Positions 3,078 through 38,474 of a DNA stretch of 64,000 nucleotides are shown in pieces. Positions within the stretch are counted from its first letter, which is position 1; each line of letters opens with the position of its first letter. Position numbers and translations under genes: made by a program. The notes below the pieces were generated by a model that did no database searches, was not told the origin of the DNA, and saw nothing but the letters and a program-made list of their open reading frames with translations. Source of the DNA: Pseudovibrio exalbescens (GTDB lineage Bacteria; Pseudomonadota; Alphaproteobacteria; Rhizobiales; Stappiaceae); contig NZ_JAQZAJ010000003.1 in NCBI RefSeq assembly GCF_028737195.1, positions 124,001-188,000 of the forward strand, in the 5' to 3' direction.

Positions 3078-3168
3078 TTTTAGTCCTCCGTGAAATGCTG
3101 GAGTTTGTGGCAGTTGCCGTTGATGCGAGAGAACGGGAGGAATGCGGCAGCACTCAGGCAAGGCCTTG

Positions 3169-4245
3169 TCAATTCAGCGGTTTTGTCTTGTCCTCTAGCA
3201 GTATGGGCTCGCCGACCTCACCGTTTCCGGAGAACAGGATGGCGATGGGTCGCGATGCCGGGAACTGCGCACACACCATGATGATGAATACCATCAGAGG
3301 TACACATAGCACCATTCCGATGACGCCCCAAATCGAGCCCCAGAAGCTCAAGGAGATGATTATCACCAGGGGCGAGATGTTCAGACTGGTGCCCATGAGG
3401 CGGGGGTCGAGAATGCTGCCAAGGACGAACTGAATGAGGCCCAAACCGATGGCGACGATCAAGAAGTTGCTCAAATTGTCAAAGAACACCAGTGCGAACA
3501 TGCTGGCGAAGACAACGGCGATCATGGAGCCGATCGTTGGGATGTAGTTCAGCAGGAACGTTATGAAGCCAAACAGCTCGGCGTAGGGCAGTCCGACCGC
3601 CTTCAGCAGGAAGTAGGTGAGAAACCCTGTGGCCAGACTGATGGCGGTCTTGATGCCCACATAGTGGCGCATGCGCTGGCCGATCTCACGGCGAATGCCG
3701 AGGGCAAGGCGTGCGCGCTCGGGGCGGTCGAAGAAGGCTTCGATCTTGCGGTCAAAGGTGCTTTCTTCGAAGATCATGAACAGCACATAGACGAAAATCA
3801 GTGTGCTGGAACCTGCAATTGTCGTCAGTACGCCGGCAGCGGCGGAAATTGTCTGGCCAATGGAGAAGTTGGGCAGCACATCAGAAAGGCCGATGGGGTC
3901 ATCCAGTTTCAGCTGGGTGGAAATGGTGAGGAACACCTCATCCAGACGGCGCTGGTAGAGCGGAGCGTCGGCGGCCATTTGCTGAAGGCTGGTGGAAACG
4001 ATGTCGAAGACGAACTTGCCAGCGACCAGCATCAGGCACAACGACACCACAATGCCTAATGGGCGCGGCACAAGGCGGCCCAGATAAGGAACGGAGCGAA
4101 CGGCTTCTGCCAGAGACGAGATCAGGTACCACAGGACGGAGGCGATGATTAGCGGGATGAGAATGGATCTGCCGATGACCAAGAGCCACCCGATCAGCAT
4201 GACGAGAATGAGGGCGAGTGTCAGTTTTAGCAGAGTGCTATTCAT
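3169..4245 (-). CDS. AI-2E family (PerM/TqsA-like) transporter
   Basis: A 358-residue inner-membrane protein with hydrophobic segments at about residues 6-40, 60-85, 140-165 and several between 205 and 335, the AI-2E/UPF0118 pattern. Family marks include the N-terminal 'LIPLIIASVLWYLISSL' helices and the C-terminal 'GSILDPRLMGTSLNISPLVIIISLSFWGSIWGVIGM' region, where G-x-SLxxSP and WG..WG are typical. Members export autoinducer-2 or other small molecules, or act as ion antiporters; the substrate cannot be predicted here. It lies 91 bp upstream of the SIMPL gene on the same strand, so the two may share a transcript. Confidence 0.9.
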   Translation of the reverse strand: MNSTLLKLTLALILVMLIGWLLVIGRSILIPLIIASVLWYLISSLAEAVRSVPYLGRLVPRPLGIVVSLCLMLVAGKFVFDIVSTSLQQMAADAPLYQRRLDEVFLTISTQLKLDDPIGLSDVLPNFSIGQTISAAAGVLTTIAGSSTLIFVYVLFMIFEESTFDRKIEAFFDRPERARLALGIRREIGQRMRHYVGIKTAISLATGFLTYFLLKAVGLPYAELFGFITFLLNYIPTIGSMIAVVFASMFALVFFDNLSNFLIVAIGLGLIQFVLGSILDPRLMGTSLNISPLVIIISLSFWGSIWGVIGMVLCVPLMVFIIMVCAQFPASRPIAILFSGNGEVGEPILLEDKTKPLN

Positions 4246-4483
4246 TTCAGGTACCTGCGCGGGCGGAGCGTTATGGCTTGGAACCTAGGGAGGACCTCCA
4301 AGATATGCAACTATTTGAGCATGGAGAGGATGAACGTCCTGCATCCACAATGCAAATGAAGAGCTTGGCTTGCATCTTCTTGCAAACACAGATTTCAACA
4401 GAAACCCACGCTTGCGCAAAAACCTGTTGTAACTAGGGTGTTTACTCGGTGAGCCAGGTTGGTATAGGAAAAGCATCTGGTAA

Positions 4484-4560
4484 GGGCCTGTAGCTCAACT
4501 GGTTAGAGCCGTCCGCTCATAACGGACTGGTTGGGGGTTCAAGTCCCTCCGGGCCTACCA
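4484..4560 (+). tRNA. tRNA with CAU anticodon, probably tRNA-Ile2 (lysidine-34)
   Basis: A complete 77-nt cloverleaf: acceptor GGGCCTG/CGGGCCT, D stem GCTC/GAGC, anticodon stem GTCCG/CGGAC around CTCATAA (anticodon CAT), T arm GGGGG-TTCAAGT-CCCTC, and encoded ACCA. The body resembles alphaproteobacterial tRNA-Ile2, in which TilS converts C34 to lysidine to read AUA. Elongator tRNA-Met shares the anticodon, so the identity is inferred. The acceptor begins with a G-U pair. No integrase or att-like repeat is seen next to it. Confidence 0.9.
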
Positions 4561-4931
4561 CCTTCCCATTGCGGCGTTGAAAATGCTGCTTGATGCCCTC
4601 ACTACTACCCCCGACATACGAGACTTGAAGAGCTGGGAGCTTTGTCGCGGTTCGGATGCTGTTTGTTGTTGCGTCAGCCACAGCGCCATGGTGAGCGGCT
4701 GTGCCAAGGAGTGAGCCGTTGCTCGATGCGGTGCGATCTCGCTCCGTCAGCTTGCCAGCCCACAGTGGTACACAGCGGGCTTATCGCAGCCAGGTTTGCC
4801 GGACAGATACAGCTGGAAAACAAGGCTTGCTCAGGAGGGACGGGGCGGGCTGGTTTGCCTTTGGAGGCTCTTTCAATAGCAACACGCCCGGATGGGGCGT
4901 GTTGTGCTGTGCGTCTGGCAAGAGGGGCTCG
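4561..4931. other. 371-bp intergenic stretch after the tRNA
   Basis: No convincing gene. The only structure seen is a perfect 9-bp inverted repeat, AACACGCCC (4881-4889) and GGGCGTGTT (4895-4903). It lies 29 bp past the leftward membrane-protein gene and could act as its terminator or mRNA-end hairpin, although no clear T run follows on either strand. Confidence 0.5.
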
Positions 4932-5444
4932 TTACTGCGCTTTTTTTCGCTCTATCACGTCAAGCACGGCGACCATGACGATGCCGTAGAGCACATGGCC
5001 AACGAGGGCCACCCAAGCGATGCCGGTGAAATTCAGGAAAAACGGCAGGCCTGCGATGAACGTGATGCCTCCGATGGCGAAAAGCCAAAGGCCAAACCCG
5101 TAGATTGCAGAGGGCAGGAACCAATGGGTGTTGCCGATGATCTTTTGCCAGATTGGGGCAAAAATGTACATCCAGCCGATTGGGTAGCCGATCAGACCGA
5201 CCAAGTAGAAGTGAACGAAATAGCCTGCAAACGCGTTGTTTGGTAGGCCCAAGCTGCCAAGCAGGCTTTGCGCCAGTCCGTGTGGGGAAAGATTGGCAAA
5301 GCCCAAGCCGGGGCTGACGATCTGGCCCCAGAAGTCGAAGGCAATCGTGGCAACGAAGCCTGAAATGAACATCAATCCCAAGGTGTCGACGTTCATTTTG
5401 GGCAGTGTTGCGGTGAGGGGGCGTTCAGAAGTCAAGGCAAGCAT
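4932..5444 (-). CDS. Conserved four-helix membrane protein, function unknown
   Basis: A 170-residue hydrophobic protein with four predicted helices (about residues 18-38, 66-88, 99-124 and 131-160) and a short basic C-terminus ending in ERKKAQ. I chose the start at 5444 (MLALTSERPLT) because AGGAGA lies 9 bp upstream; longer frames add a proline-rich, unlikely leader. I cannot name a characterised family. The conserved-looking aromatic/Gly segments (GYPIGWMYIFAPIWQK, HWFLPSAIYGFGLWLFA) suggest a small integral membrane family. It is 67 bp downstream of, and on the same strand as, the LysR gene. Confidence 0.75.
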   Translation of the reverse strand: MLALTSERPLTATLPKMNVDTLGLMFISGFVATIAFDFWGQIVSPGLGFANLSPHGLAQSLLGSLGLPNNAFAGYFVHFYLVGLIGYPIGWMYIFAPIWQKIIGNTHWFLPSAIYGFGLWLFAIGGITFIAGLPFFLNFTGIAWVALVGHVLYGIVMVAVLDVIERKKAQ

Positions 5445-5511
5445 GGGCTTTCTCCTGGGGCGTTGAGGGGGAGTTATGGGCGTTGATGGGGCTTCGTGTT
5501 GCGACACCGCT

Positions 5512-6435
5512 TCAGGCGGTGTCCGGGACCACGGCTTTTTTCTGCTGATGGGGTTTTCCGAATTCGCTCCAGTCAATCGATCGGCACAGACGCACGAACA
5601 GGTCCACCACGGGTGTGTGGCGTCGTCCTCTCTTGGTTATGACGGAAACGGTGCGTTCGATATCCGGCTCGACAAGCGGCCTTTTTTGCAGTTGAGGATG
5701 AGATGCCAGACTTTTCGGCATGACAGCGCAGCCAAGTCCGGCAATGACCATCGCCTGAATCCACGACTCGTGTTCGCTCTTGAAGCGCTCGTCAACAGAC
5801 CCGTCGTCCTTGAAGCCGGCAGCCTCCAGGAAAGTCAGGTATTCGCAGTTGATGCGTTCCAGATAGCGCTCCCCGTCAAGGGCCTTTAGAGGCACATTGT
5901 CCATTTGCGCAAAGCGGTGGCCTTGCGGAAACGTGATGACATACTTCTCGGTGAAAAGCGGTGTGGCTGACAGATCGTCCGCATACGTGGGCAGAGCGGC
6001 CAGAGCGATGTCGATCTCGCCGTCCTGAAGCATATCCACCACCTTCTGGCCTGATCCTTCTCGCAGGCAGAGCTTAAGCTCCGGGGCCTCGCGCTGGAAG
6101 AAGTCGATCAGGCTCATGAGACTTTCGGGCGCGATCGTGCACATGCAGCCGAGCGTAAGCGTGGAGTTTCGAAGGTTTTGAAAATCCAGCGCATCTTTCT
6201 GGGCGAACTCAGTCAATGCCAGTGCCTGCTCCAGCCGGGGGTGGATCGCGCGGCCAAGCTCGGTGAGGTGGGTTCTGCGGCCCTCCCGGCGGAACAAGGG
6301 GCCGCCGAACTCATCCTCCAGTTTTCGTATGGCCTTGGTCAGAGACGGCTGAGAAATACCGCATTGCTCTGCAGCCCGCGTGAAGTTGAGCGTTTCTGCA
6401 ACGGCTACAAAATATCTAAGTTGATGCAACTCCAT
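5512..6435 (-). CDS. LysR-family transcriptional regulator
   Basis: A 307-residue LTTR. The N-terminal winged helix-turn-helix (MELHQLRYFVAVAETLNFTRAAEQCGISQPSLTKAIRKLE) is followed by a substrate-binding-type effector domain. It is transcribed away from the secreted cupin gene, the classic LTTR arrangement, so the cupin and YHS genes are likely targets. An inverted repeat CTATGA-N15-TCATAG (6489-6515) in the shared upstream region is a candidate site. The effector is unknown; the recognition helix resembles CbbR/BenM-type members. Confidence 0.92.
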   Translation of the reverse strand: MELHQLRYFVAVAETLNFTRAAEQCGISQPSLTKAIRKLEDEFGGPLFRREGRRTHLTELGRAIHPRLEQALALTEFAQKDALDFQNLRNSTLTLGCMCTIAPESLMSLIDFFQREAPELKLCLREGSGQKVVDMLQDGEIDIALAALPTYADDLSATPLFTEKYVITFPQGHRFAQMDNVPLKALDGERYLERINCEYLTFLEAAGFKDDGSVDERFKSEHESWIQAMVIAGLGCAVMPKSLASHPQLQKRPLVEPDIERTVSVITKRGRRHTPVVDLFVRLCRSIDWSEFGKPHQQKKAVVPDTA

Positions 6436-19808: not shown

Positions 19809-22800
19809 ATGCGTATCCTATCCATTCGCGGTGAGGGGCTTGCGAGCCTTGCTGCGCCCTTTGAAATTGATCTGGAGGCCGAGCCGCTGCGCGGTGCGGG
19901 CCTGTTTGCGATCACCGGTGAAACCGGGGCGGGCAAATCCACCATCCTTGATGCCATGTGTCTGGCGCTGTTTGGCAAATGCCCGCGTTTGACCAGTGAT
20001 GGCAGTGACGAGAGCGTGCCGGATGTGTCGGGTGACACGTTCCGGGAAAAAGATCCCAAATCCGTTTTGACCCGTGGTGCGATCAACGGCCATGCAGAAG
20101 TGGATTTCGTTGGCGTTGACGGAGAGACCTACCGCTCACGGTGGATGGTTCGCCGGGCACGCGGCAAGGCCTCTGGCCGGCTGCAGAACGTGGACCGCAG
20201 TTTTTTACGCGTGCGCGATGCAAAGACCATGGAAAGCGGCATTAAGAACGTGGATGCCGCCGTGGAGGCTCATCTGGGCCTGAACTATGATCAGTTCCGC
20301 CGCACGGTGCTGCTGGCGCAGGGCGACTTTGATGCCTTCTTGCGCGCCAATGACCGGGAGCGGGCAGCGCTTCTGGAGAAGATCACCGGCACCACCATTT
20401 ATCGGCAGATTTCGGAGAAGGTGCATCAAAAGCACAGCGAGGCCCAAGACGCGGTGCGCGAGCTGGAGGTTCAGGCTGGTACCATTGGCCTGCTGGATGA
20501 GGACGATCGAAAGGGGCTGGAAGCGGAAAAGGCGCAGCACGACACCGACCTTGCCGCCCTGCAGGCGGAACTTGCCAAAACAGAGGCTGTGCTTGGCCAC
20601 TTGACCCGCGTTGAAACCGCTCGTCAGCAGCTTTCCAATGCGCAGGATGCATTCTTGAAGCATCAGGAGGCCTATGCCCAAGCAGCGGATCGTCGGTCGC
20701 TCAGGGATCAGTTGGCGCGTATCGGCCGGGTTGAACCTTCTGCTGCCAATGTGGAGAGGGCGCAGGAAGCGCAAGCCAAAGTAACGCAGGATCTGGAGAA
20801 AGCTCTTCAGGAACTGAGCGCGAAAGAGGGCGAGGTGGCGACGGCGGTGGCTGCAGAGACCGAAACCGCGGATCAGTTTGCCCAGCTTGAAAAGGAGTTG
20901 GAAGCACTCAACCCGCAATGGGTTAAGGCCTATCAACTTGATGAAAAAATCGAGCAGTCGCAGCAAAACGTGACCCAGATGGCTGGCGAGCTTTCGAAGG
21001 CGCAGCAACAGTTTGCCGAGGTGCAAAAGGAGCTGGAACGCGCGCAAAAGCAGCGTGAAGAAAAGGCCGCGCTGAAGGCCAAGCTCCAAGAGCAGCTTGC
21101 GCGATTGCAGCCGATTGCACCGGTTGCTGCCAACCCTGAGCCCGTGCTGGGGGACTTGGCGCAGTATGGTGAACTCAAACACAAACTGGCGGAACGCACG
21201 ACACGGGCCGAGAGGGCGCAGGAGAAGCAGCGGGAACTGGCTGCGATTGAAGCGTCGCTTAGTGAAGAACTCACCAAGCTTGGAACGGAGTTGGAGGCGG
21301 CGGAAACCAATGCTGCCGAGCTGCGGAAAACAACCAGTGGGTTTGATCCGGCTGCCAATGCAAAGGCACGGGAGGCCTTTCAGGAAGTGGCACGGGCAGT
21401 GAAGCGCCTTGGTGATGAACAGGATGCCGTTACCCGTGTCTCGCGCCAAGTGCATGCCGATGAAACACAAATCACGCAACTTGAGGCGCAGGTCAAAGCC
21501 TTGACCGCCAAGCGCGAGGCGGAAGGCGTGCGCCTTGAAGAGCGCAAGAGGCAAGCAGAACAGGCCAAGCAGGCTGCGGCTTTGGCCGACCTTGCCCAAG
21601 ATCAACATGCGGCCCGGCTGAGGGCTGAACTTGCGGCAGATGAAGCGTGTCCTGTGTGCGGCAGTACGGAGCACCCGTTTGCAGACCATGAGGATGGCGA
21701 CCTTACAGCGCTCTTTAAGGAACTGACCGAGCAACGCGCGGCGACACAGCAGAAGCTGCAGGAAAGCCAGCAAACGCTTGAGACGCTTCGCGGCGATGAA
21801 CATCGTTCCACGGTTGAGCTGAGGGTGCAGCGGGAAGCGCTCACCACGCGTCTAGAAGAGCGCCGCCGCACGGAGACAGCGCTTGAAACCTCTTGGCAAA
21901 CTCTTGAAAAAGCAGCGCAAGACGCTTTTGCCGACCGGGAGGACAAGCCGGACTTGGGCCCAACAGCGCAAGAGACCGATCTGAAGGCGCTTGAAAGCAA
22001 GGTGGGCACTTGCCTGGGGGAGCTTGAGGCGTCTTCCAGCCATTACTATGCGCAGATGCGCAAGTTGGAAGACGCGAATACTAAGGTCTTGTCCCTTCGC
22101 CGTACCCGCGAGCAAAAAAGGGAAGAACATGGGGCAAAAGCGAAGGCGCTTGCTGAGCTCAATTCGGCTGCTGCGGTTGATGAGACGGAAAAGCAAGGCT
22201 TGGCAGGCCAGCTTGAGGCGCTTCGTGGGCGTTTGCTCACCGCGCTCTTGCCCTTCAACCTGACAGAAGAAGCGCTTGAAGCGGACGTTTCGGCTGTGGC
22301 GCGTGAGGTTGAGCTGAAGTGCCGTCATTTCCGCGATGCCAGTGCCAAGGAAAAGCAGGTGGAGGGCGAGCTGCAGGAACTTGTCGCAAGCCTGAGCCGT
22401 TCGGAGGAACGTGAGGCGAGCCTTCAAGCCACTGTAACGGCACTGCAAGACAAACACAGCGCGTTGACCCAGTCGCTCGAAACCTTGCGGGCGGACCGCC
22501 TGCAAATTCTGGGGGGCGTGCCGACGGAGCAGCACGAGAAAACGTTTCGGGCCAAACATCAGGCGGCCCGCGATGCAGCTGGCGCGCGCAAGGATGAGCG
22601 GTTGAGCTTGGTGCAAGAGCAGGTGGCGCTTCAGTCTACGGTGACTGGATATCGCAGGCAGCAGGTTCAACAGGCTGAGGTGGTGGAAGCCGCAGAAGCA
22701 GCATTTGCCGCAGCGCTCGTCGAGCACGAAGTTGAAGCCGATCAATTCGCTCTGCTGCGCGTTAGAGCGCGGGAGGAGCTGGCCGGACTGGAGGACGAAC

Positions 22801-23573
22801 TGCGCGCTCTTGATGAAGCGCTGAAGACGGCGCGTGAGACCGTGTCCTTGCGGGAAAAAGATCTGGCGGCGACCGAGCCGGAAAAGGCCGAAGGGGTGGA
22901 ACGTCCTGCCCTTGAAGCTGCTGTTGCTGAGCAACGTGAGAATTCGCAGAAGCTGAGCGAGAGCATCGGCATGCTGCGCCAGAAACTGGAAGATGATGAC
23001 AAGGCGCGCGCCAAAGCCGCGCACATGCAGAAAGCCATTGAAGAGGCGCGCAACCATGCCGACCAGTGGGGCGCTGTTTCAACGGCCATTGGCTCAGCCA
23101 ATGGCGACAAGTTCCAGCGCATTGCGCAGGGTGTGACCCTTGGCTTGTTGGTGGAACTGGCGAACAAGCAACTCAAGCAGCTCAAGCCGCGCTATCGTCT
23201 GGCCCGCGCAGACAAGGGGCTCGGCCTTTTGGTTCTGGATCTGGACATGGGCGATGCGCCGCGCTCAACACGCTCCTTGAGTGGCGGTGAGCGTTTCCTT
23301 GTATCGCTTAGTCTGGCGCTGGCGCTTTCCTCCCTTGAAGGGCGTCAATCCTTCGTGGATACGCTCTTCATTGATGAGGGCTTTGGCTCCTTGGATGGCG
23401 AGACGCTGGATGTTGCTATTGATGCGCTGGAAATGCTGCAGGGGCAGGGCCGCAAGGTGGGCGTTATCAGCCACGTTGAGGCGATGAAGGACCGTATTCC
23501 GGTTCAAGTGCAGGTTCAGCGGCAAGGTGGGGGACGCAGCCGCGTGGCTGTGGTGGCACCTTCGGGCTGGTGA
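19809..23573 (+). CDS. sbcC: SbcC-type ATPase subunit (Rad50-like)
   Basis: A 1254-residue SMC-like ATPase. Walker A is GETGAGKST near residue 38. A very long heptad-rich coiled coil fills the middle, broken near residue 613 by the zinc hook CPVCG. The C-terminal lobe has the ABC signature RSLSGGERFLVSLSLALALSS and Walker B TLFIDEGFGSLD, then the His switch VISHVEAM. The length is above E. coli SbcC (1048) because of the extended coil. The Ala/Glu/Gln-rich arms create long open frames on the opposite strand that are artefacts. Its stop abuts the stop of the convergent Amt-GGDEF-EAL gene with no intergenic DNA. Confidence 0.96.
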   Translation: MRILSIRGEGLASLAAPFEIDLEAEPLRGAGLFAITGETGAGKSTILDAMCLALFGKCPRLTSDGSDESVPDVSGDTFREKDPKSVLTRGAINGHAEVDFVGVDGETYRSRWMVRRARGKASGRLQNVDRSFLRVRDAKTMESGIKNVDAAVEAHLGLNYDQFRRTVLLAQGDFDAFLRANDRERAALLEKITGTTIYRQISEKVHQKHSEAQDAVRELEVQAGTIGLLDEDDRKGLEAEKAQHDTDLAALQAELAKTEAVLGHLTRVETARQQLSNAQDAFLKHQEAYAQAADRRSLRDQLARIGRVEPSAANVERAQEAQAKVTQDLEKALQELSAKEGEVATAVAAETETADQFAQLEKELEALNPQWVKAYQLDEKIEQSQQNVTQMAGELSKAQQQFAEVQKELERAQKQREEKAALKAKLQEQLARLQPIAPVAANPEPVLGDLAQYGELKHKLAERTTRAERAQEKQRELAAIEASLSEELTKLGTELEAAETNAAELRKTTSGFDPAANAKAREAFQEVARAVKRLGDEQDAVTRVSRQVHADETQITQLEAQVKALTAKREAEGVRLEERKRQAEQAKQAAALADLAQDQHAARLRAELAADEACPVCGSTEHPFADHEDGDLTALFKELTEQRAATQQKLQESQQTLETLRGDEHRSTVELRVQREALTTRLEERRRTETALETSWQTLEKAAQDAFADREDKPDLGPTAQETDLKALESKVGTCLGELEASSSHYYAQMRKLEDANTKVLSLRRTREQKREEHGAKAKALAELNSAAAVDETEKQGLAGQLEALRGRLLTALLPFNLTEEALEADVSAVAREVELKCRHFRDASAKEKQVEGELQELVASLSRSEEREASLQATVTALQDKHSALTQSLETLRADRLQILGGVPTEQHEKTFRAKHQAARDAAGARKDERLSLVQEQVALQSTVTGYRRQQVQQAEVVEAAEAAFAAALVEHEVEADQFALLRVRAREELAGLEDELRALDEALKTARETVSLREKDLAATEPEKAEGVERPALEAAVAEQRENSQKLSESIGMLRQKLEDDDKARAKAAHMQKAIEEARNHADQWGAVSTAIGSANGDKFQRIAQGVTLGLLVELANKQLKQLKPRYRLARADKGLGLLVLDLDMGDAPRSTRSLSGGERFLVSLSLALALSSLEGRQSFVDTLFIDEGFGSLDGETLDVAIDALEMLQGQGRKVGVISHVEAMKDRIPVQVQVQRQGGGRSRVAVVAPSGW

Positions 23574-26500
23574 TCAACCCGTGGAGGCGAGTTTCTTGCC
23601 TTCTTTGCCTCTGTTGTTTGCCTCAGGGCGGTTTTCTTCAAGTCGCTTTGAAACTTCATTGAGCACAACAATGTACTCGTTGAGCTGGCCGCCATCCCGT
23701 TCGTGGATGCCTGCCAGCAGATCTTCAGGCGAAAGCGGTGCTGGTCGGCCAATGAGATAGCCCTGAACTTCGTCGCAGGCTTCATTACGTAGCAGCTCCA
23801 GCTCGGGCTCTGTCTCAACACCTTCAGCAATGACTTCCATGCCAAGGGCCTGACCCAAGTCGATAACCGCGCGGATGATTGCTGCAAGACCTGGTGTCGC
23901 GGTTGCGCCGCTAACAAAGCTGCGGTCGATCTTCAAGCGGTCAAACGGGAAGCGGCGCAGGTAACTCAAAGAAGAATAGCCCGTGCCGAAATCATCAAGG
24001 GCAATGCGAACACCGCGCGCCTTCAACGTCTTGAGGGTTTCCAGAGCGCGTCGATCATCATGCAGCAGCACGCTTTCGGTCACCTCAAGCTCAAGCCGTT
24101 GAGGGGCAAGGCCACTTTTTTTCAACGATTGTTCAACATGTTGCAGCAGGTATTCGTCTGCAAACTGAACGGCACTGAGATTAACGCCGACGCGGTATTT
24201 CGAAGGCCAGCTGGCCGCGTTGCGGCACGCTTCTTCCAGCACCCAGCGGCCGATTGGAATGATCAAGCCGCTTTCCTCTGCCACCGGTATAAAATCCGTC
24301 GGGCTCACAAAGCCTTTTGTTGGGTGGTTCCAGCGCAGCAACGCCTCATAGCCCACGATGCTGCGGTCACTGGCCCGCGCCTGCGGCTGGAAGAAGAGCT
24401 GAAACTCTTGGTTGCGGATTGCCTTGCGCATGTCCACTTCCAGCACCCGACGTATGCGGAGGGCGGATTCCATCTCGGATTCGAAAAAGCGGAAGGTGTT
24501 GCGCCCCTCTTCCTTTGCCTTGTAGAGCGCAATATCGGCATTTGCGAGCAGCATGTCCGGGTCCAGCCCGTTGTCGGGAGAAAGGGCGATGCCAATGCTG
24601 GCGCTGGTACGGATCGTGATGTCTTCGGTGACAGAAACCGGCTTTGAGAGCATTTCGAGAATGCGATTGGCGAGGAGGCCGACCTCTGCCTTCGTCTTCA
24701 GATTGACCTGGATAATGGCGAACTCATCGCCGCCAAGGCGGGCGCAAGTATCTGCATGACCGATGCAGGCGTTCAGGCGCTTGGACACGGTCTGGATGAA
24801 CTTGTCACCGGTGGGGTGGCCGTACAGATCGTTGATTTCCTTGAAGCGGTCGAGGTCGATCATCATGATGGCCACAAGGCCTGTTTTCGCTCCGCGGTTC
24901 TCTACTGCCGTTTGGAACCGTTCGCGGAACAGGGTCCGGTTTGGCAGGCCGGTGAGGATGTCATGCTGGGCAAGATGCAAGATCTCCGCTTCGGCCTTTT
25001 TCTGCTGGCGTATATCGCGAATTGCCGAAAGGCGGAAGACAATACCATTCAGCTCCAGCGGGCGGGCGCGAATTTCAACCGGGATGCGCTCCTCAAGCTT
25101 GCTGATGATCATCGTCTGGTAAGGTGCCTGATGGGTGTTTTTCAGGGCACGTTCCGTGATCTTGATGTGGTCTGGTGCAATGAAGTTCAGGATCGGTTTG
25201 CTGATCAGCTCGTCTTCGGAGCGGCCAATCAGCTCTTGAAACGCCTTGTTGCACTCAATGATGCGGCCATTCTTGGAGATGACCAAACCTTCGAAGGTAC
25301 CGTCTGCGAAGACCTTGAGTTTTTGAAAGTCCGCGCTTTCTGTATCCTTGGAGCTTGAAAAGGCCCGGCGATCTTCCGCCGTTTGGAACCTTTCAACGAG
25401 TTCGTTAACCTGGCTGGTAATTCTTGCGTGAATGTCTCCGTGAGGGATTTCAAGTTGGCGGACATTGTCCATGTCACCATGAAGGACTTCCTCAAGTGTC
25501 TGCTCAATGATCGCCAGTTCGCCCCGGTTGTCTTCTTCGGCTGAACCGTCGTCTTTCTGTAGCCCGAGTTTCACCATGCCGAAGCGATCAAGCGTGGTGA
25601 AGAGAATAAACCCTGTGCCAAGCACCCAGGCTGCGTTGGTGAGGACGCCCAAGATCTGAGCGCCCAGCTGGGCATCACGTGTTACAGCTTCGAGGGTGAA
25701 GGACGGGATGATGACGGAGATTGCGACCGAGCCCAATGCAGCAACACCGGCGTAAGCCATGTGGCTTGCTGCTAAACGATTGAAGCCATACACCTTGTTG
25801 GCGTAGTAGAATATGAGGAAGAAGCAGGCTGCGCCCAGTATGCCCGTCAGCGTTGCGGCGGCGGAGGTGATCAATTCCGGAGCGGCTGACGAGAACGTGA
25901 GACCGCCCATGATGCCGAGCAGGATATTGGCAAGAAACGGCAGGTCGCGGCGAAACCGGCCCAACAGCGCGCCTGTCAGGGCGCCAAACAGGGCCGCGTT
26001 CAGCGTGTTGTAGACGATCATGGGCACCAGGCCCGAGAACAATTTCACTGACCCGATGTTTAGGCCAGCCCAGCCTATGATGATCAAGAGGATGCCGGCT
26101 AGAATGGGTACTGCGTTACGCTCCCAATCCACTTCAAAACCATAGGCTCGCGCAGGGCCGATCTTGGCGCGGCCCGTTGCGATTTGTGCGGCCAAAGCAA
26201 ACAGCGGTGCGGTCATATGGATGACCGTGATGCCGGAATGGTCGATGAAGCCGATGGAAGACAATGCCCCCTGGCCCAAGCTTGTTGCGGGAATGCCCCA
26301 CACCCAGTGAGCGTAGACCGGATAAACAATGATCGCGAGCACTGCGGCGGTTATCAAGTGCCCCTTGAAGGTGAGCATGCGTGCAAGCGGTATGTAGGTA
26401 AACAGAACCACAATGCCGCAAAGGACAGTCTGAAATGCTTGGGCTGCCAGAGCACGATCAGAAATGCTGTGCATGAACATCAGGGATGGGTCAAACCCAA

Positions 26501-26861
26501 ACCAGCCAGACTTGGTTGGGCCGAACGCGATCATGAAGCCAATGGTGGTAAAACAGGCAACCCCAACGGCGAATACTGCAATGGCGCGTGTGATTACAAC
26601 ATTCAAGTCTCGGCCTGCGCTGGAGGCACCAAAAATGAAGAAGAAACCGAGCGGGGTCATAAAGGCCATGGCTGCGGTTGCCATGGGCCAGAGCTGCTCG
26701 AGGCTAGCGAGTGTGCTGAAGGCGGGGGCAACAACGCCAGCATATTCTGAGGCAGAGGGAAAGGTGCTCGCGAGCTCAAACATGGGGTGGGACAGTGCCC
26801 CGACAGTCGTCGCCAAACTGCCCACGATAAACGTTAGGCAAGTTTGAATGAGTGCCCGCAT
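23574..26861 (-). CDS. Ammonium transporter (Amt) domain fused to PAS-GGDEF-EAL
   Basis: A 1095-residue fusion. Residues 55-430 form an Amt/Mep/Rh-type domain with about eleven helices: FQT (Phe gate, about 143), HWVWG (185-189), FIDHSGITVIHM with Asp207 and pore His215, GWAGLNIGS (263-271), and the second pore His367 in ASHMAYAG. Residues 515-620 form a PAS domain. The GGDEF domain (about 632-795) has an intact GGDEF at 710-714, but GHAD stands where the RxxD inhibitory site should be. The EAL domain (about 800-1050) has EALLR (839-843), EVTES, DDFGTGYSS (956-964) and AEGVETE, so phosphodiesterase residues are intact. It is probably a membrane sensor coupling ammonium to c-di-GMP turnover. 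Amt domains fused to signalling domains, such as histidine kinases, are known. Confidence 0.93.
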   Translation of the reverse strand: MRALIQTCLTFIVGSLATTVGALSHPMFELASTFPSASEYAGVVAPAFSTLASLEQLWPMATAAMAFMTPLGFFFIFGASSAGRDLNVVITRAIAVFAVGVACFTTIGFMIAFGPTKSGWFGFDPSLMFMHSISDRALAAQAFQTVLCGIVVLFTYIPLARMLTFKGHLITAAVLAIIVYPVYAHWVWGIPATSLGQGALSSIGFIDHSGITVIHMTAPLFALAAQIATGRAKIGPARAYGFEVDWERNAVPILAGILLIIIGWAGLNIGSVKLFSGLVPMIVYNTLNAALFGALTGALLGRFRRDLPFLANILLGIMGGLTFSSAAPELITSAAATLTGILGAACFFLIFYYANKVYGFNRLAASHMAYAGVAALGSVAISVIIPSFTLEAVTRDAQLGAQILGVLTNAAWVLGTGFILFTTLDRFGMVKLGLQKDDGSAEEDNRGELAIIEQTLEEVLHGDMDNVRQLEIPHGDIHARITSQVNELVERFQTAEDRRAFSSSKDTESADFQKLKVFADGTFEGLVISKNGRIIECNKAFQELIGRSEDELISKPILNFIAPDHIKITERALKNTHQAPYQTMIISKLEERIPVEIRARPLELNGIVFRLSAIRDIRQQKKAEAEILHLAQHDILTGLPNRTLFRERFQTAVENRGAKTGLVAIMMIDLDRFKEINDLYGHPTGDKFIQTVSKRLNACIGHADTCARLGGDEFAIIQVNLKTKAEVGLLANRILEMLSKPVSVTEDITIRTSASIGIALSPDNGLDPDMLLANADIALYKAKEEGRNTFRFFESEMESALRIRRVLEVDMRKAIRNQEFQLFFQPQARASDRSIVGYEALLRWNHPTKGFVSPTDFIPVAEESGLIIPIGRWVLEEACRNAASWPSKYRVGVNLSAVQFADEYLLQHVEQSLKKSGLAPQRLELEVTESVLLHDDRRALETLKTLKARGVRIALDDFGTGYSSLSYLRRFPFDRLKIDRSFVSGATATPGLAAIIRAVIDLGQALGMEVIAEGVETEPELELLRNEACDEVQGYLIGRPAPLSPEDLLAGIHERDGGQLNEYIVVLNEVSKRLEENRPEANNRGKEGKKLASTG

Positions 26862-27235
26862 TTCAAACCCCCGAAGCGAAACATCTGGTTTCGGCGCAGT
26901 AATTATTATTTGCCACTTATATTACAGTGGTAGATAGTACACAGTCTCTTTAAATTTCTTTACTTTTTTATCTGTGACAGTTTTTTGTCGGTGCGATTTT
27001 CAGGCGGTTTCCCTACAGGAAAAGCAAAGGGAAACGCCAAGTGTGCTTAATGAACTGATAAAATGCAATTTTATGGGATCTATTCATAACCAGTTGCCCC
27101 TACCTGAAAAACTCAGGCGCGAATCCCATTCCTTAAACAAGTTCACAGTCAAAAGCGTTAGACTTGCGACTAGTTCACAAAATCAACCCAGTTTGATGAC
27201 GAAGCACAGAATTCGTGTCAGGGCCAAGAATAAAA
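26862..27235. other. 374-bp AT-rich divergent intergenic region
   Basis: Separates the leftward Amt-GGDEF-EAL gene from the rightward HAD-like gene and must hold both promoters. An interrupted inverted repeat is visible: GTTTCCC (27007-27013) and GGGAAAC (27029-27035), flanked by GGC/GCC. No short gene is convincing. Confidence 0.5.
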
Positions 27236-28126
27236 ATGAAGTGGGCAGCTTTTTTTGCAACAGGCGCAATAGCCGTTATGCAACCCACAGGGGTGGAGCA
27301 TACGGAAATACTTGGATCATGGCAGGCCGAGCAGGTCCGTCATCGATTGATCGAGTTCGTGGAGCGCACGACGCGCGCCGGGTCAGCCGATTACCTTGAT
27401 ATCGACATGCGCCTTGCTGTGATTGAGGCAGATGGCTTCTTGTGGGGCCCGCACGTGGGGCCTTCACCCGTTCCGGCCACAACAAAGGGCCTTCAACCAG
27501 AGGCGAGAGCCACAGACTTGCTTCAGGAGGTCCGGCTCTCTTCTTACCGTGAAAACGTTCTTCAGCGCTATCTGGAGCAGGAGCACTTCGGCAGCTCTGA
27601 TGCGGTCTTGGTGCGAAATGAGCGTGCAGCGGAATTGATCGCATTCTTGCGTTCACGAGACTATCAGGTCTTGATCGTTACCAACACTGAAGCAGAGCTT
27701 GCCCGCTATCTTGCGAAGTCGCTCTATGAAATGCCACGGTCCACGGTGGTAGGGCCACGTGTCTCTCTGCGGTTCGCAGGGAAAGCGGGCGGTGTCTTGA
27801 TGACCCGCGAGCTTCGCGGCACTTCGGCGGCTTCCGTGCGCGATGTTGGTCTTGCTCATATTTCCGAGGTTTACAACCGTGCCGGCATGCGGCCGGTGAT
27901 GGCTGTTGGGCAATCGGGCACGCTGGAGGCCTTTCAACGATGGATGGCAGATCTCAAGAAGCCTGCGTTGACCTTGGCCTTGGAACCTTCAACGGAGGAG
28001 GGATTGGTTGATACTTGCGTCGGATTAATGGAGGGCGTTGCGCGTGACGGTTTTGGGGTGGGGGGTGCCTGTACTGTTTCCGAAGGCCTTATTGCGCGCG
28101 CTGAAAGCTTGAAGGATGAACTCTAG
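27236..28126 (+). CDS. HAD-fold protein lacking catalytic aspartates
   Basis: A 296-residue protein, with a possible N-terminal signal or anchor (KWAAFFATGAIAVMQ), that follows the phosphoserine-phosphatase-like HAD layout. Motif I reads AVIEADGFLW (residues 61-70) where active members have D-x-D-G-T-L-W, so the nucleophile Asp is Glu. Motif II is VLIVTNTEAEL (145-155). Motif IV reads AVGQSGTLEAF (223-233) where GDSxxD is expected, so both metal-binding acids are gone. It is probably a non-catalytic HAD relative; the binding role is unknown. The ATG at 27236 is preferred over a GTG at 27215, but neither has a strong ribosome site. Confidence 0.65.
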   Translation: MKWAAFFATGAIAVMQPTGVEHTEILGSWQAEQVRHRLIEFVERTTRAGSADYLDIDMRLAVIEADGFLWGPHVGPSPVPATTKGLQPEARATDLLQEVRLSSYRENVLQRYLEQEHFGSSDAVLVRNERAAELIAFLRSRDYQVLIVTNTEAELARYLAKSLYEMPRSTVVGPRVSLRFAGKAGGVLMTRELRGTSAASVRDVGLAHISEVYNRAGMRPVMAVGQSGTLEAFQRWMADLKKPALTLALEPSTEEGLVDTCVGLMEGVARDGFGVGGACTVSEGLIARAESLKDEL

Positions 28127-29805: not shown

Positions 29806-29859
29806 TTAAAAGCAAGGCCTGTGAGATTTGTAAAGCATGGGTGCCTTAATGCGCTGCCC

Positions 29860-29920
29860 GGAAAACCCCCAGAAACCTAACGGGTTTTCCATGGGGTCCA
29901 CGTTATGCATTGCCCCATGG
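29860..29920 (+). promoter_or_regulatory. Two adjoining hairpins in the ettA leader
   Basis: GGAAAACCC (29860-29868) with GGGTTTTCC (29882-29890) is a perfect 9-bp stem. CCATGGGG (29889-29896) with CCCCATGG (29913-29920) is a perfect 8-bp stem. The two overlap by 2 nt and sit 73-133 bp before the ettA start, after the DUF1127 terminator. They could form a regulatory leader, or the first could be a weak terminator. Confidence 0.45.
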
Positions 29921-29992
29921 CGTGCCTTCCGTTATGAGTGCTCTCCAGAGATTTCTAGTTTTTGCGAACAATTCAGGAGATGTAGGCACCCA

Positions 29993-31642
29993 ATGGCGCG
30001 CCAATTCATCTATCATATGCACGGGGTTTCCAAAGCCTACGGTGCAAAGAAAGTCCTCGACAACATTCACCTGTCTTTCTACCCAGACGCCAAGATCGGT
30101 ATCCTCGGTCCTAACGGTGCGGGTAAGTCGACCCTTTTGAAGATCATGGCGGGTCTGGACAAGGAATACACCGGTGAAGCCTGGGCCGCAGATGGGGCCA
30201 AGATCGGCTACCTGCCTCAGGAACCGCATCTGAATCCAGACAAGACCGTTATGGAAAATGTCATGGAAGGCGTTGCCCACAAGCAGGCCAAGCTGGACCG
30301 TTATAATGAGCTGATGATGAACTACTCGGAGGAAACTGCCGAGGAAGGTGCTCAGCTCCAAGACGAGATCGACGCACAGGACCTGTGGAACCTGGAAAGC
30401 CAGGTCGAGATGGCAATGGAAGCACTGCGCTGTCCTCCATCTGATGCGGATGTGACCAACCTTTCTGGTGGTGAGCGCCGCCGTGTTGCTCTGTGTAAGC
30501 TTTTGCTTTCCGAGCCAGATCTGCTGCTGCTTGACGAACCGACCAACCACCTGGACGCTGAAACCGTTCACTGGCTTGAACGCCACCTGCGTGAGTTCAA
30601 GGGTTCTGTTCTGATCATCACCCACGATCGCTACTTCCTCGACAATGTGACAGGCTGGATTCTTGAGCTCGACCGTGGTCAGGGCATTCCATACGAAGGC
30701 AACTACTCCGTTTATCTGGAGAAGAAAGAAAAGCGTATGGAACAGGAAGGCCGCGAGAACATGGCTCGCTCCCGCGCGATCAAGCGCGAGAAGGAGTGGA
30801 TGGGCATGTCTCCGAAGGGCCGCCAGACCAAGTCAAAGGCACGTATCAAGGCCTATGACGATCTGCTGGCCGCACAGGAAGAGCGTATGCCGTCCATTGA
30901 GCAGATCATGATCCCGGTTGGAGAGCGCCTCGGTGCGAACGTGATCGATGTTGAGAACGTGTCCAAGGGCTTTGGCGACCGCCTGCTCATCGAAGACCTG
31001 TCTTTCAAGCTGCCTCGCGGTGGTATTGTTGGTGTGATCGGTCCGAACGGTGCGGGTAAGTCTACCCTCTTCAAGCTGCTGACCGGCCAGGAAAAGCCAG
31101 ACAGTGGCAGCGTAACGCTTGGTGACCGCGTGCACCTTGGCTACGTTGATCAGTCTCGTGACAAGCTGGATGACAGCAAGACCGTATGGGAAGAAATTTC
31201 CGAAGGCGCTGAGGTGATCTACCTCGACGGCAAGGAAATCAACTCCCGTGCCTACTGCTCTTCCTTCAACTTCAAGGGGCCTCAACAGCAGGCGAAGGTT
31301 GGCGACCTTTCAGGTGGTCAGCGTAACCGCGTCCATTTGGCGAAGGTTCTGAAGTCTGGCGCAAACGTTCTGCTGCTCGACGAACCGACTAACGACCTTG
31401 ACACTGAAACGCTTGCGGCTTTGGAAGATGCCCTTGAAAACTACGCCGGTTGCGCTGTGGTTATTTCGCACGATCGTATGTTCCTTGACCGTCTTGCAAC
31501 ACACATGCTGGCCTTTGAAGGTGACTCCCACGTTGAGTGGTTTGAAGGTAACTTTGAAGACTACGAAAAGGACAAGGTGCGCCGTCTGGGTGCTCATGCA
31601 GCAGACCCAACCCGCATCAAGTACAAGCCGCTTACCCGCTAA
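29993..31642 (+). CDS. ettA: Energy-dependent translational throttle EttA (ABC-F)
   Basis: A 549-residue ABC-F protein that binds the ribosomal E site and gates the first elongation steps according to ATP/ADP. There are two ABC domains without membrane segments: Walker A GPNGAGKST twice (near residues 40 and 352), signatures LSGGERRRVAL and LSGGQRNRVHL, and Walker B LLLDEPTNHLD and LLLDEPTNDLD. The linker between the domains carries the KGRQTKSKARIKAYDDL segment and the N-domain has the EttA arm. The sequence follows E. coli EttA closely to its C-terminal KRIKYK-like end (TRIKYKPLTR). I start at 29993 (MARQFIYHMHGV) behind AGGAGA. Codon bias is strong, indicating high expression. Confidence 0.96.
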   Translation: MARQFIYHMHGVSKAYGAKKVLDNIHLSFYPDAKIGILGPNGAGKSTLLKIMAGLDKEYTGEAWAADGAKIGYLPQEPHLNPDKTVMENVMEGVAHKQAKLDRYNELMMNYSEETAEEGAQLQDEIDAQDLWNLESQVEMAMEALRCPPSDADVTNLSGGERRRVALCKLLLSEPDLLLLDEPTNHLDAETVHWLERHLREFKGSVLIITHDRYFLDNVTGWILELDRGQGIPYEGNYSVYLEKKEKRMEQEGRENMARSRAIKREKEWMGMSPKGRQTKSKARIKAYDDLLAAQEERMPSIEQIMIPVGERLGANVIDVENVSKGFGDRLLIEDLSFKLPRGGIVGVIGPNGAGKSTLFKLLTGQEKPDSGSVTLGDRVHLGYVDQSRDKLDDSKTVWEEISEGAEVIYLDGKEINSRAYCSSFNFKGPQQQAKVGDLSGGQRNRVHLAKVLKSGANVLLLDEPTNDLDTETLAALEDALENYAGCAVVISHDRMFLDRLATHMLAFEGDSHVEWFEGNFEDYEKDKVRRLGAHAADPTRIKYKPLTR

Positions 31643-34420: not shown

Positions 34421-35341
34421 CTATTCCGCGGCTTGGGTTGAGGTGCTGGAAGAGCCGGCCTCGATGGCTGAGTTCATGGCTTCGATCCAGCTCAGAACAT
34501 TGTCTGAAGACGATGCGCTGGTCGCAAATTGCCAGCCCATGACGCCGCCGAAGTCGGATCCCAGCTCCTTGGCGAGCGGCGTGACCACATAGCTTGCCAG
34601 ATCATCGTCATCGAGGTAGCCACTGCTCGCATTGTCTGAAGTGGTTGGCTTGCCAACGAGCATTTTGCTGACATCGAGGCCTTGAGCCTTGATGCCCATG
34701 ATGCTGGAGGGGAACACTGAGCTGCCGGTCAGTCCGGCTACCTTTTCTTCCTCATCGGAGCCAGAGCTGCCGACGTACCAATCGTTGTTGTAGTACTGGA
34801 TGTTGAAGAGATCGATATTGTCGCCCGCGTTCTTGGCGATTGTGCTGTAAATATCTAGATCGCTGCCCGTGTAGAAATAGGGGCATTGTGGAGCGTGGGT
34901 GATGAAGTTCTGAGAACTTGGCAAGGCGGACTTCAGAGCGCTTGAAAGGTCTAGAAGGAAGGTGGTCGGGTCGTAGCTGCCATCTGAAATTGCGCCTGTG
35001 TCTTCCCAATCGATGTCGACGCCGTCGAAATTGTACTTTTCAACGAAGGCGGCAATCTGTGAAGCGAAGCTGCTGACATCGGATGCCGCCGCTTTCCAAG
35101 CGCTGGACGCAAAAACTTCGCCGCCCACAGAAACCAGAACCTTGCGCTTTCCATTCTCCTTGGTGCTGGAGATGATGGAGGGATCCTGCACGGCCGCTTG
35201 AAGCGGATAATCCATCTGCAAAGTTGAGCCGTCTTCGGAGTATAGGAAGGCCTGAATGGCAATGGTGCAGGAACTGCCGATCAACCCGGTGATGGGAACG
35301 TTGGTGTTGTCTGCATAGATGACGATCTGAGATGAGGACAT
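34421..35341 (-). CDS. GH18 chitinase-like glycoside hydrolase
   Basis: A 306-residue single-domain GH18 barrel. The catalytic strand motif FDGVDIDWE (Asp106, Asp109, Asp111, Glu113) is complete, and the SxGG motif is present as SVGG (71-74). The barrel end contains GGVMGWQFATSAS. GH18 members cleave chitin or related GlcNAc polymers using substrate-assisted catalysis. The N-terminus (MSSSQIVIYADNTNVP) has no signal peptide, and no carbohydrate-binding domain is present; the Ser/Thr-rich C-terminus could be a linker or export tail. The ribosome site AAGGAGAAGAACG is strong. It forms an operon with the GH64-like gene. Confidence 0.87.
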   Translation of the reverse strand: MSSSQIVIYADNTNVPITGLIGSSCTIAIQAFLYSEDGSTLQMDYPLQAAVQDPSIISSTKENGKRKVLVSVGGEVFASSAWKAAASDVSSFASQIAAFVEKYNFDGVDIDWEDTGAISDGSYDPTTFLLDLSSALKSALPSSQNFITHAPQCPYFYTGSDLDIYSTIAKNAGDNIDLFNIQYYNNDWYVGSSGSDEEEKVAGLTGSSVFPSSIMGIKAQGLDVSKMLVGKPTTSDNASSGYLDDDDLASYVVTPLAKELGSDFGGVMGWQFATSASSSDNVLSWIEAMNSAIEAGSSSTSTQAAE

Positions 35342-36230: not shown

Positions 36231-38474
36231 TCAGTGCGTGCCAGTTCCTTGCGCGATCGAAGGTGCAGCCGCCCCATTAATATTCCATTGGGGGCACAGG
36301 TTCAGCAAGTGCCCCAATGATACCGCATGAGCACTTCCACCGCGCTGGCCGAGCATGCCGCCTAGTTGGTCAAATGTCCATTCCTGAACGTCGCTGCGCA
36401 GGTTCGTTGCGACAATGGACAGATTCAGGTTTCGGGCAACGCCAAAGCCAGAGGCAAGTAGCAACCGGCCATTGCGCTGGCTGGAAAGCTGCTCGATGAC
36501 TTGGGCATCCATCTTCAAGAACCGCAGGTTAAGCTTGCTAAGATAGGACAGGGAGGCGATGCCGGAGCCAAAATGGCTGAGGCAAATGCCAAAGCCCATT
36601 TGACTGACGTCTTGAAGGCGCTGAACCACACCCATGTGGTTGCGCGGCGTGATCTTGCTTTCGTTGATCTCAATGGTGATGCGCTCGCGGGCAATACCTG
36701 CATGGTCTGTCAGTTCAACGAGTGTGCTAAGAAAACTGGACCGGAAAAGAGCCTGAAGTGGTGTGGTGACAGTGACGTTCTCGAACGGGAATTGATCGGA
36801 ATCCAGACGCTTGATGTCCGTGATGGTTTGCTCCAACGCCAATGCATGAAGGTCTGCAATCAGACCGTAGTCACTCAGGCTGTCGTAAAGTCCCCCTTCG
36901 CGGCTTTGTCGTCCGCCCAGCTTGGGAAGGCAGGGCTGAGCGGCCAGATGCCTGATCTCATTGGTCTGCAGGTCAATGATGGGGCTGTAAGCCAGTTCGA
37001 TGCGACGCGTTTCCACGGCACCTCGGGCCCGCTCCGCGATGGTGGCCGAGCGGTCGAGCCTTTGTTGCATGCCCTCTGAGAACAGCTTGGTGCAATTGCG
37101 CCCCTTGTTCTTGGCGGAATAGAGGGCAACATCGGCGAAACGGATCAGATCCTTGGCGTTATCTGCATGGCGCGGATAACAAGCGGCACCAATGCTGACG
37201 CTTGGGTGAATGAGCTGGTCTCCCAGCTTGACGGGCGCTTTAATGAGTTCCGGCAGGTCCTTGATGGTCTGCTGCAGTTCGGCGCAAGTGATGGGCTCCA
37301 GTAGCACTGCGAACTCATCCCCGCCGAGGCGGGCCACCAGATGGCCGTTGTCTTCGAGTCTTTTCAAGCGGTTTGCGACTTCCTTCAAGAGTGCATCGCC
37401 AAACTCGTGACCCATGGTGTCGTTGACCAGCTTGAGGTGGTCCATATCTACCATCAGCAGGCCTATCTCATGAGACTGTTCAGCTGCTCGCGTAAAAGCG
37501 CGCTCTACGCGTTTGTCAAACGCGAGGCGGTTGTGCAATCCGGTCAGCTTGTCGGTGACGGCCAATTGCCGAACCTCTGCTTGCTGTTGCAGCTGCGAGG
37601 TCACGTCCATGATTGAGATCAGCCACGCGTCCTCCGAGCCATTGCGCGTGCGAGATACGCGCAGCTCATGCTCCGCGGTGGACGGGCCGCGCACCTTCAA
37701 GGTCGCCCCTAGCTGGCAGGTGCAGTGGCTTGTGAGTTCGTCGAACTTGTCACTCAGCTGGTCACCGCTTTCGATTTCGTAGATCTGGGCGAGGGTCTCG
37801 CCGCGTGCGCTAATGCCTTCTTCCTTGAAAAGGCGGCGGGCAGCCCGGTTGATCTGAGAAATCTGCAACTCATCCGTCCACACCAAAAGGGTGGGGCAGG
37901 GGTGGTCCTCAAAAGGGAATTGCTGGCGGTCTCGATCGCATGGAGCGGTTGTTTTTGCACTGCCGAGCGATGCAGGCATCACCCCCTTGCGTGGGGTGCC
38001 GAGTGTGAAACTCGGCTGCGGCTTTCGGGGCTCAATCTGGTTAGTTGAGCCGAGGCCGGACAGGTTGGCGGATATGGCCTCTGCGAGCCTGCCCAAATAG
38101 GCCAAGGGCTTGTCGTCAAGGGCGAGGCCGTCTTCTGCCGGCAGCATGACAAGGGCGCCGATAATTTCATCATCAAAGCTAATCGCGGCTGCCGCCTCAA
38201 TGCGATCATTCGGCAGGCTTGCACGGGAGAGTTTGACGGCTCCCTGCCTGGTGTCGAGCGTATCTCGTAGCCAGACCAGCGGGGCCCTTGCGGTGATCAT
38301 GGACTGATCTGGTGCCAGAATCCGCCAGGTAGAAAAGCAGATAAAGCGCACAGGCTTTTCATAGAACAACTCGAGAGTCTGCAAAGCGGTGGCCATGAAC
38401 TCCCAGTCATGCAGCCACGGCAGTTGCTGCGCCACGCTATAAACGCTGCGGGACCTTTCGGCGACTCTTGTCAT
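36231..38474 (-). CDS. GAF/PAS-like GGDEF protein with degenerate EAL domain
   Basis: A 747-residue cytosolic protein. Residues 20-140 look like a GAF-type sensor and 190-298 a PAS domain. Residues 300-465 form a GGDEF domain with intact ARLGGDEFAVL (384-388); no RxxD inhibitory site stands at the usual spacing. Residues about 470-725 keep an EAL-like fold but not its catalysis: the EAL position reads HLAAQP, DDFGTGYSS became LSHFGSGIASLSYL, and AEGVET became VATNLRS. It is therefore probably a diguanylate cyclase with a binding-only EAL remnant. AT-rich upstream DNA separates it from a divergent SufR-like gene. Confidence 0.88.
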   Translation of the reverse strand: MTRVAERSRSVYSVAQQLPWLHDWEFMATALQTLELFYEKPVRFICFSTWRILAPDQSMITARAPLVWLRDTLDTRQGAVKLSRASLPNDRIEAAAAISFDDEIIGALVMLPAEDGLALDDKPLAYLGRLAEAISANLSGLGSTNQIEPRKPQPSFTLGTPRKGVMPASLGSAKTTAPCDRDRQQFPFEDHPCPTLLVWTDELQISQINRAARRLFKEEGISARGETLAQIYEIESGDQLSDKFDELTSHCTCQLGATLKVRGPSTAEHELRVSRTRNGSEDAWLISIMDVTSQLQQQAEVRQLAVTDKLTGLHNRLAFDKRVERAFTRAAEQSHEIGLLMVDMDHLKLVNDTMGHEFGDALLKEVANRLKRLEDNGHLVARLGGDEFAVLLEPITCAELQQTIKDLPELIKAPVKLGDQLIHPSVSIGAACYPRHADNAKDLIRFADVALYSAKNKGRNCTKLFSEGMQQRLDRSATIAERARGAVETRRIELAYSPIIDLQTNEIRHLAAQPCLPKLGGRQSREGGLYDSLSDYGLIADLHALALEQTITDIKRLDSDQFPFENVTVTTPLQALFRSSFLSTLVELTDHAGIARERITIEINESKITPRNHMGVVQRLQDVSQMGFGICLSHFGSGIASLSYLSKLNLRFLKMDAQVIEQLSSQRNGRLLLASGFGVARNLNLSIVATNLRSDVQEWTFDQLGGMLGQRGGSAHAVSLGHLLNLCPQWNINGAAAPSIAQGTGTH

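Follow-up and report, generated by a model that had tools for sequence, protein, structure and literature searches.

An Amt-fold domain without the known ammonium-site residues, joined to PAS, GGDEF and EAL domains in Pseudovibrio exalbescens

Known Amt domains work as transporters and, in two cases with a solved structure, as receptors: one is joined to a histidine kinase (Ks-Amt5), the other to a GGDEF domain (Sd-Amt1), and an Amt receptor with a GGDEF domain is not new in kind. Here we asked what such a domain does in a gene of Pseudovibrio exalbescens (GCF_028737195.1), which lies at 23574-26861 on the minus strand of a 64,000-nucleotide stretch of contig NZ_JAQZAJ010000003.1 (positions 124,001 to 188,000; hereafter the window) and in which an Amt domain is followed by PAS, GGDEF and EAL domains. 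A first-pass annotation, made from the letters of this DNA, had suggested that ammonium directly sets the level of cyclic di-GMP (c-di-GMP) through this protein. Our results did not support this suggestion, since the protein lacks the two-ammonium site and the Phe gate and, most likely, the second His. We estimate at about 0.6 the probability that the domain is a repurposed Amt-fold receptor or scaffold, which would no longer use the known ammonium site.

The gene is a single intact open frame of 1095 amino acids (aa) that spans the interval exactly, while frame 1 of the plus strand is interrupted by stop codons. A Pfam scan of the protein matched Ammonium_transp at residues 60-431 (25569..26684), PAS_9 at 525-618 (25008..25289), GGDEF at 631-788 (24498..24971) and EAL at 810-1040 (23742..24434), all above the curated cut-offs; the Ammonium_transp match had an E-value of 2.4e-29 and 102.7 bits, against a cut-off of 23.2. 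Motif reading located GGDEF at 710-714, EALLRW at 839, NLSAVQF at 894, EVTES at 926, DDFGTGYSS at 956, LKIDRSF at 976, AEGVET at 1012 and QGYL at 1033, consistent with a GGDEF-EAL enzyme in which the catalytic motifs of both domains are present. Pfam and motifs thus bore out the fusion of an Amt domain to PAS, an intact GGDEF and an intact EAL that had first been described, and placed it on the minus strand. The Arg of the RxxD inhibitory site is missing from the GGDEF domain, as had also been noticed (GHAD at residues 701-704), but this is a common state among GGDEF-EAL proteins and hence little informative. The enzyme half found its best PDB matches in 4rnh and 5m3c, whose entries are described as Motility regulator and Diguanylate cyclase, and its catalytic motifs align to 4rnh. 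We take these to be the GGDEF-EAL modules of MorA and RmcA, proteins whose sensor domains differ from Amt.

In order to characterize the membrane part, residues 1-520 were modelled with AlphaFold2 from an alignment of 22 rows. The model, with a mean predicted local distance difference test (pLDDT) score of 75.7, contains eleven main helices, counted by hand, consistent with the Amt fold. Its first Foldseek match was Ks-Amt5 (6eu6), with a template-modelling (TM) score of 0.86 by target length, followed by Sd-Amt1 entries and AmtB, and the best 50 matches listed were all Amt/Mep/Rh proteins. As modelled, from an alignment that includes Amt rows, the membrane domain is therefore an Amt fold. The model of a sister-species protein, L085 (pLDDT 69), still matched Amt structures in Foldseek (TM 0.78 to 6eu6), and a Pfam scan of L085 and of a second sister-species protein, L083, gave no Ammonium_transp match at E up to 0.01.

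The nearest solved structures, Ks-Amt5 and Sd-Amt1, agree with the first-pass annotation that an Amt domain can serve as the receptor for a fused output, and Ks-Amt5 is an Amt domain with a histidine kinase, the kind of ammonium sensor that the annotation also mentioned. According to the Ks-Amt5 paper (PMC5764959), Q24, E31, N47, D50, T51, T109 and T112 of this Kuenenia stuttgartiensis protein hold two ammonium ions, the kinase activity is ammonium-dependent while transport is not efficient, and the authors propose the two-ammonium site as the trigger. Ks-Amt5 is the best match of the window Amt part by both sequence and fold, and in both proteins Amt would stand as a receptor, but its output is a histidine kinase instead of PAS-GGDEF-EAL, and none of its seven site residues is kept in the window protein. 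Sd-Amt1 of Shewanella denitrificans (PDB 8qj3, 8qj4 and 8qpf; Foldseek TM 0.83-0.85 by target length), whose PDB titles speak of a receptor and of its ON and OFF states, resembles the window protein in joining an Amt-fold receptor to a C-terminal GGDEF domain. In contrast to the window protein, this domain occupies chain residues 463-630 of a chain that ends at 644-661, leaving no space for EAL, and Sd-Amt1 retains the Q, E, N, D, T and S residues, the gate and the twin-His, which the window protein lacks.

The alignment showed the two-ammonium signalling site of the window protein to be replaced throughout, with Gln changed to Pro70, Glu to Phe77, Asn to Ala93, Asp to Val96, Thr to Leu153 and Ser to Tyr156; the share of the first helix in this site, residues 70-77, lies at 26631..26654. 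Both Phe of the gate are replaced as well, by L147 and L267. From the residue set of transporters, the vestibule residues Trp188 (26298..26300; Ks-Amt5 W144) and Ser271 (26049..26051; S227) are kept, together with Asp207 (26241..26243; D163), and neither the Phe gate nor the twin-His pair is found. Asp207 and the HWVWG (185-189) and FQT (143-145) elements, singled out in the first annotation, are indeed present and align with known Amt residues. Its pore pair His215/His367 held in part: His215 (26217..26219; H171) is the first twin-His, but none of the three aligners placed His367 (25761..25763) at the second (H326), and the nearest orthologue, in genome G011, has Leu at 367 and Tyr at 370. 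The second position fell on Tyr370 with MAFFT, on an Ala with phmmer and on Met368 with hhalign, a spread of up to three residues. Tyr370 (25752..25754) is most likely at this place, since the MAFFT stretch to P386 is gap-free against the reference protein L071, with G377 and P386 matched. With the two-ammonium site, the second twin-His and the gate Phe lost, the window domain most likely serves neither for ammonium transport nor for ammonium sensing in the manner of Ks-Amt5 or Sd-Amt1.

We then compared these residues with relatives from the genus, family, order and class of the window. Outside the genus, 39 Amt-GGDEF-EAL reference proteins were collected. The family search covered 87 genomes, of which 36 contributed 37 of these proteins, and two other families supplied one each; their enzyme half was recognised by alignment, and by Pfam in two only. 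None of the 39 departs from the six signalling residues (Q, E, N, D, T, S), and each has its two gate Phe, its Trp, its Asp and the full twin-His pair; the vestibule Ser is kept in 38. Seven further Amt receptors likewise keep the signalling, gate and pore residues, and in three of these Pfam finds a fused methyl-accepting chemotaxis protein (MCP) domain. Of the resulting 46 reference proteins, most were retrieved using ordinary Amt-receptor sequences. The proteins of neighbouring genera (L067-L073, L075-L080, L161-L186) have the same domain order as the window protein and a similar length (1039-1138 aa), and differ from it in keeping the signalling and pore residues; in the two that were scanned, the Pfam PAS match lay over the cut-off in L071 and under it in L069. 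The AmtB-type transporter of the window genome (L001, beside a PII gene) belongs to the same fold family but has no output domain; it keeps the Trp, the Asp, both His and both gate Phe, but Q24 is replaced by Ala and D50 by Leu.

Within the genus the picture is different. The altered form occurs in 9 of 16 genomes, split or interrupted in two of them (G006 and G011), and an Amt-GGDEF-EAL protein with the site kept was found in none of the 16. In the residue table, which leaves out L090 (G006) and L086 (G030) because of their broken frames, none of the eight genus proteins has any of the six signalling residues, the first gate Phe or the second His. The G011 orthologue has lost the same nine positions as the window protein, and keeps W188, D207, S271 and His215 across its two Amt pieces. 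Six sister-species proteins (L082-L085, L087, L088) are also without the Trp, the Asp, the first His and the Ser, and keep the second gate Phe. Altogether, 93 Amt columns are invariant in the 39 reference rows and the window protein keeps 45 of them; the nine signalling, gate and second-His columns account for none of these, compared with 45 of the 84 others (Fisher p 0.0027).

A search with the Amt profile of the genus did not find the altered form in 71 other family, 297 order and 385 class genomes, samples which overlap and of which the order and class samples contain the window's own genome. The best matches outside the genus (E about 1e-47 to 1e-41) were mostly about 1077-1238 aa or about 780-870 aa long, with one of 607 and one of 928, and further frames of 1083-1117 aa also matched. 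All 14 in which the residues were read (L191-L204) keep every ammonium residue. A swap of the Amt part for a different membrane domain is not supported, as these genome samples yielded no closer relative beyond the genus. In the literature searched, which left most subscription journals outside its coverage, no Amt-GGDEF-EAL protein and no Amt receptor without the ammonium site was found, and the passages seen of PMC10433425, PMC2330054, PMC2907700, PMC12487129, PMC12918730, PMC7646526 and PMC2628731 describe no such fusion.

The genus proteins are orthologous to one another. In a tree of the enzyme half, from which L088 was left out as too short, the window protein, that of G011 and those of the sister species form one clade (support 100/100). 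Its sister group consists of the 13 other Amt-GGDEF-EAL rows in the tree (100/99), and the two groups are jointly separated from the remaining GGDEF-EAL proteins included (99/97). The Amt tree gives a matching grouping. At all eight genus loci compared (L066, L082-L085, L087, L088, L090), the gene is flanked by a SbcC-like gene on one side and an EttA gene on the other. In the window these markers are a convergent neighbour at 19809..23573 (plus strand), with a putative SbcC-like product, and an EttA-like ABC-F protein at 29837..31642 (plus strand).

The two halves of the protein have diverged very differently. The window protein and L085 are 20% identical in the Amt part, 38% in PAS, 73% in GGDEF and 76% in EAL. 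Even the nearest orthologue, that of G011, is only 49-50% identical to the window in its Amt part, over two pieces split by one TAG, and the 13 neighbouring-genera rows reach 23-27%. Outside the genus Amt is as conserved as the enzyme: against L071, the 12 other rows show 59-75% identity in the Amt part, compared with 57-74% for GGDEF and 55-70% for EAL. Stems in the Amt tree measure 3.57 (genus) and about 6.6 (sister species) changes per column, versus 0.51 and 0.13 for the enzyme; the Amt values are saturated and can be read only as very fast.

Selection on the altered domain was estimated as the ratio of non-synonymous to synonymous substitution rates (dN/dS) by the Nei-Gojobori method (NG86). 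For the Amt part, dS was saturated in four of the eight genus pairs and computable in the rest, which gave ratios of 0.040, 0.064, 0.067 and 0.095; nine pairs outside the genus gave 0.058-0.242. With such low ratios, selection probably maintains the altered Amt domain in the sister species, which speaks against a simple decay of the domain, subject to the caveat of saturation. The dN of the Amt part exceeded that of the enzyme 2.4-5.4-fold in the eight genus pairs, compared with ratios of 0.8-6.5 in the nine others; the case for a domain-specific speed-up within the present-day sister species is weak, and the bursts sit on the stems.

We propose the following explanation. The gene would encode a c-di-GMP enzyme bound to the membrane, with an Amt-fold domain from an Amt-GGDEF-EAL ancestor of the ammonium-receptor type as its receptor part. 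Such an Amt-PAS-GGDEF-EAL protein would have been inherited in the genus, and its inner ammonium site then lost: gone throughout the genus are the two-ammonium residues, the first Phe of the gate and the second twin-His, and in the window and G011 the second gate Phe as well. These two proteins may represent a half-way form, with the outer vestibule kept and the inner site gone. The remodelled domain would have been retained to receive a different signal, or as a scaffold that keeps PAS-GGDEF-EAL in place and in its orientation. We infer that the altered domain still works, because the enzyme half is strongly conserved and the membrane half is apparently under purifying selection in the sister species; while the architecture, the fold, the residue losses, the orthology and the low dN/dS in the sister species were shown directly, a lost response to ammonium, a retained signalling role and any new ligand belong to the inferred part. 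Only tentatively do we suggest the more specific course in which an ammonium-sensing Amt domain was rebuilt, in two steps visible in living species (half-way in the window and G011, complete in the sister species), into a receptor for a different ligand, with fold, place and enzyme unchanged, the ammonium residues gone and selection strong.

Several points weigh against this explanation. Only one usable Amt dS is low (0.49, in the pair L087/L085 with dN/dS 0.040), the others being 1.67-2.63 and near saturation. The selection estimates come from the sister species and not from the lineage of the window, where G011 is the only close relative and has a TAG within the frame. The alignments behind the window and L085 models include ordinary Amt domains, so that neither model is independent of the family. 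Moreover, within helices 1-4 alone the contrast between signalling residues (0 of 6 kept) and their neighbours (12 of 34) was not significant (p 0.15), and in L085, where most invariant columns are gone, it was not significant either. The residue losses are thus regional and might have arisen as side effects of a general remodelling; a targeted loss of ligand residues alone is weakened by this control, as the first bundle changed as a whole.

W188, D207, S271 and His215 also remain in the window protein, and some ammonium binding is possible. The domain might then still be an ammonium sensor, in which the outer vestibule (W188, D207, S271) and His215 read ammonium without need for the inner site. 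The persistence of these four residues in the window and, over two pieces, in G011 would fit this, as would the Ammonium_transp score that the window domain still obtains in Pfam. We nevertheless consider it rather unlikely: it is the two-ammonium site that was proposed as the trigger in the Ks-Amt5 work (PMC5764959), all 39 Amt-GGDEF-EAL rows from other genera keep six of its positions, and the vestibule residues are lost in 6 of 6 sister-species rows that carry the same conserved enzyme. Alternatively, the domain could have become a passive anchor and oligomerisation scaffold, with control exerted by the PAS domain or by expression. The lost ligand residues, the very fast divergence on the stems and the kept PAS domain agree with such an anchor, but a dN/dS of 0.040-0.095 in the sister species indicates more constraint than is expected of a bare one, although an obligate trimer could impose it; we regard this as unlikely.

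A last alternative is that the receptor role has been lost and the locus is decaying, with the gene on its way out. Neither form of the gene is present in 7 of the 16 genus genomes, which also counts against our own explanation, as does the splitting of the G006 copy (L090) into two frames. The G011 copy (L066) contains one TAG, and L086 (G030) consists of several fragments. L088 of G005 (2968-6105, minus strand) has an EAL domain short of about 50 residues including the NLS motif, and its phosphodiesterase half is probably inactive. Decay of the locus nevertheless appears very unlikely, as the window frame is intact over 1095 aa with all catalytic motifs, and dN/dS lies far below 1 for both halves in the sister species.

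The remaining parts of the protein and its surroundings can be described briefly. Residues 1-50 (26712..26861, minus strand) form a hydrophobic stretch before the first Amt helix, a low-confidence helix in the model, and appear to resemble a signal peptide. A helical linker, seen in alignment and model, covers residues 436-520 (25302..25556, minus strand); it looks HAMP-like by eye, and the Pfam scan gave no HAMP match there. Sd-Amt1 has a HAMP linker and is controlled by ammonium. From the Amt fold, the fused PAS-GGDEF-EAL output is predicted to be cytoplasmic. Divergent to the gene, on the plus strand at 27215-28126, lies a 303-aa frame for which Pfam returned nothing at E up to 0.001 and whose counterpart in G011 (46% identity) adjoins the orthologue. 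A second PAS-GGDEF-EAL protein, of 747 aa, is encoded about 9 kb away (36231-38474, minus strand), and the genome contains 11 GGDEF matches in total. At 34424-35341 (minus strand) there is a match to Glycosyl hydrolase family 18 (E 5.9e-20). Among other Amt receptors, L074, L081 and L089 (811-815 aa) combine Amt domains that have all signalling residues with an MCP signalling domain and are candidate ammonium chemoreceptors; the genome of L081 belongs to the genus of the window, and no Amt-GGDEF-EAL gene was found there. Four more Amt receptor frames (L187-L190, 818-928 aa) keep the signalling residues and have no GGDEF-EAL match.

In summary, ammonium control of c-di-GMP is a good hypothesis for the relatives that keep the site, and the label 'ammonium transporter, GGDEF, EAL' may mispredict such control within the genus; in the two sister-species proteins scanned, Pfam misses the Amt domain altogether. 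The orthologue clade provides a natural series, with the site kept, half lost and fully lost, in which one can test what residues an Amt domain needs in order to act as a sensor. The same series lets one ask whether the Amt fold can adopt a new signal.

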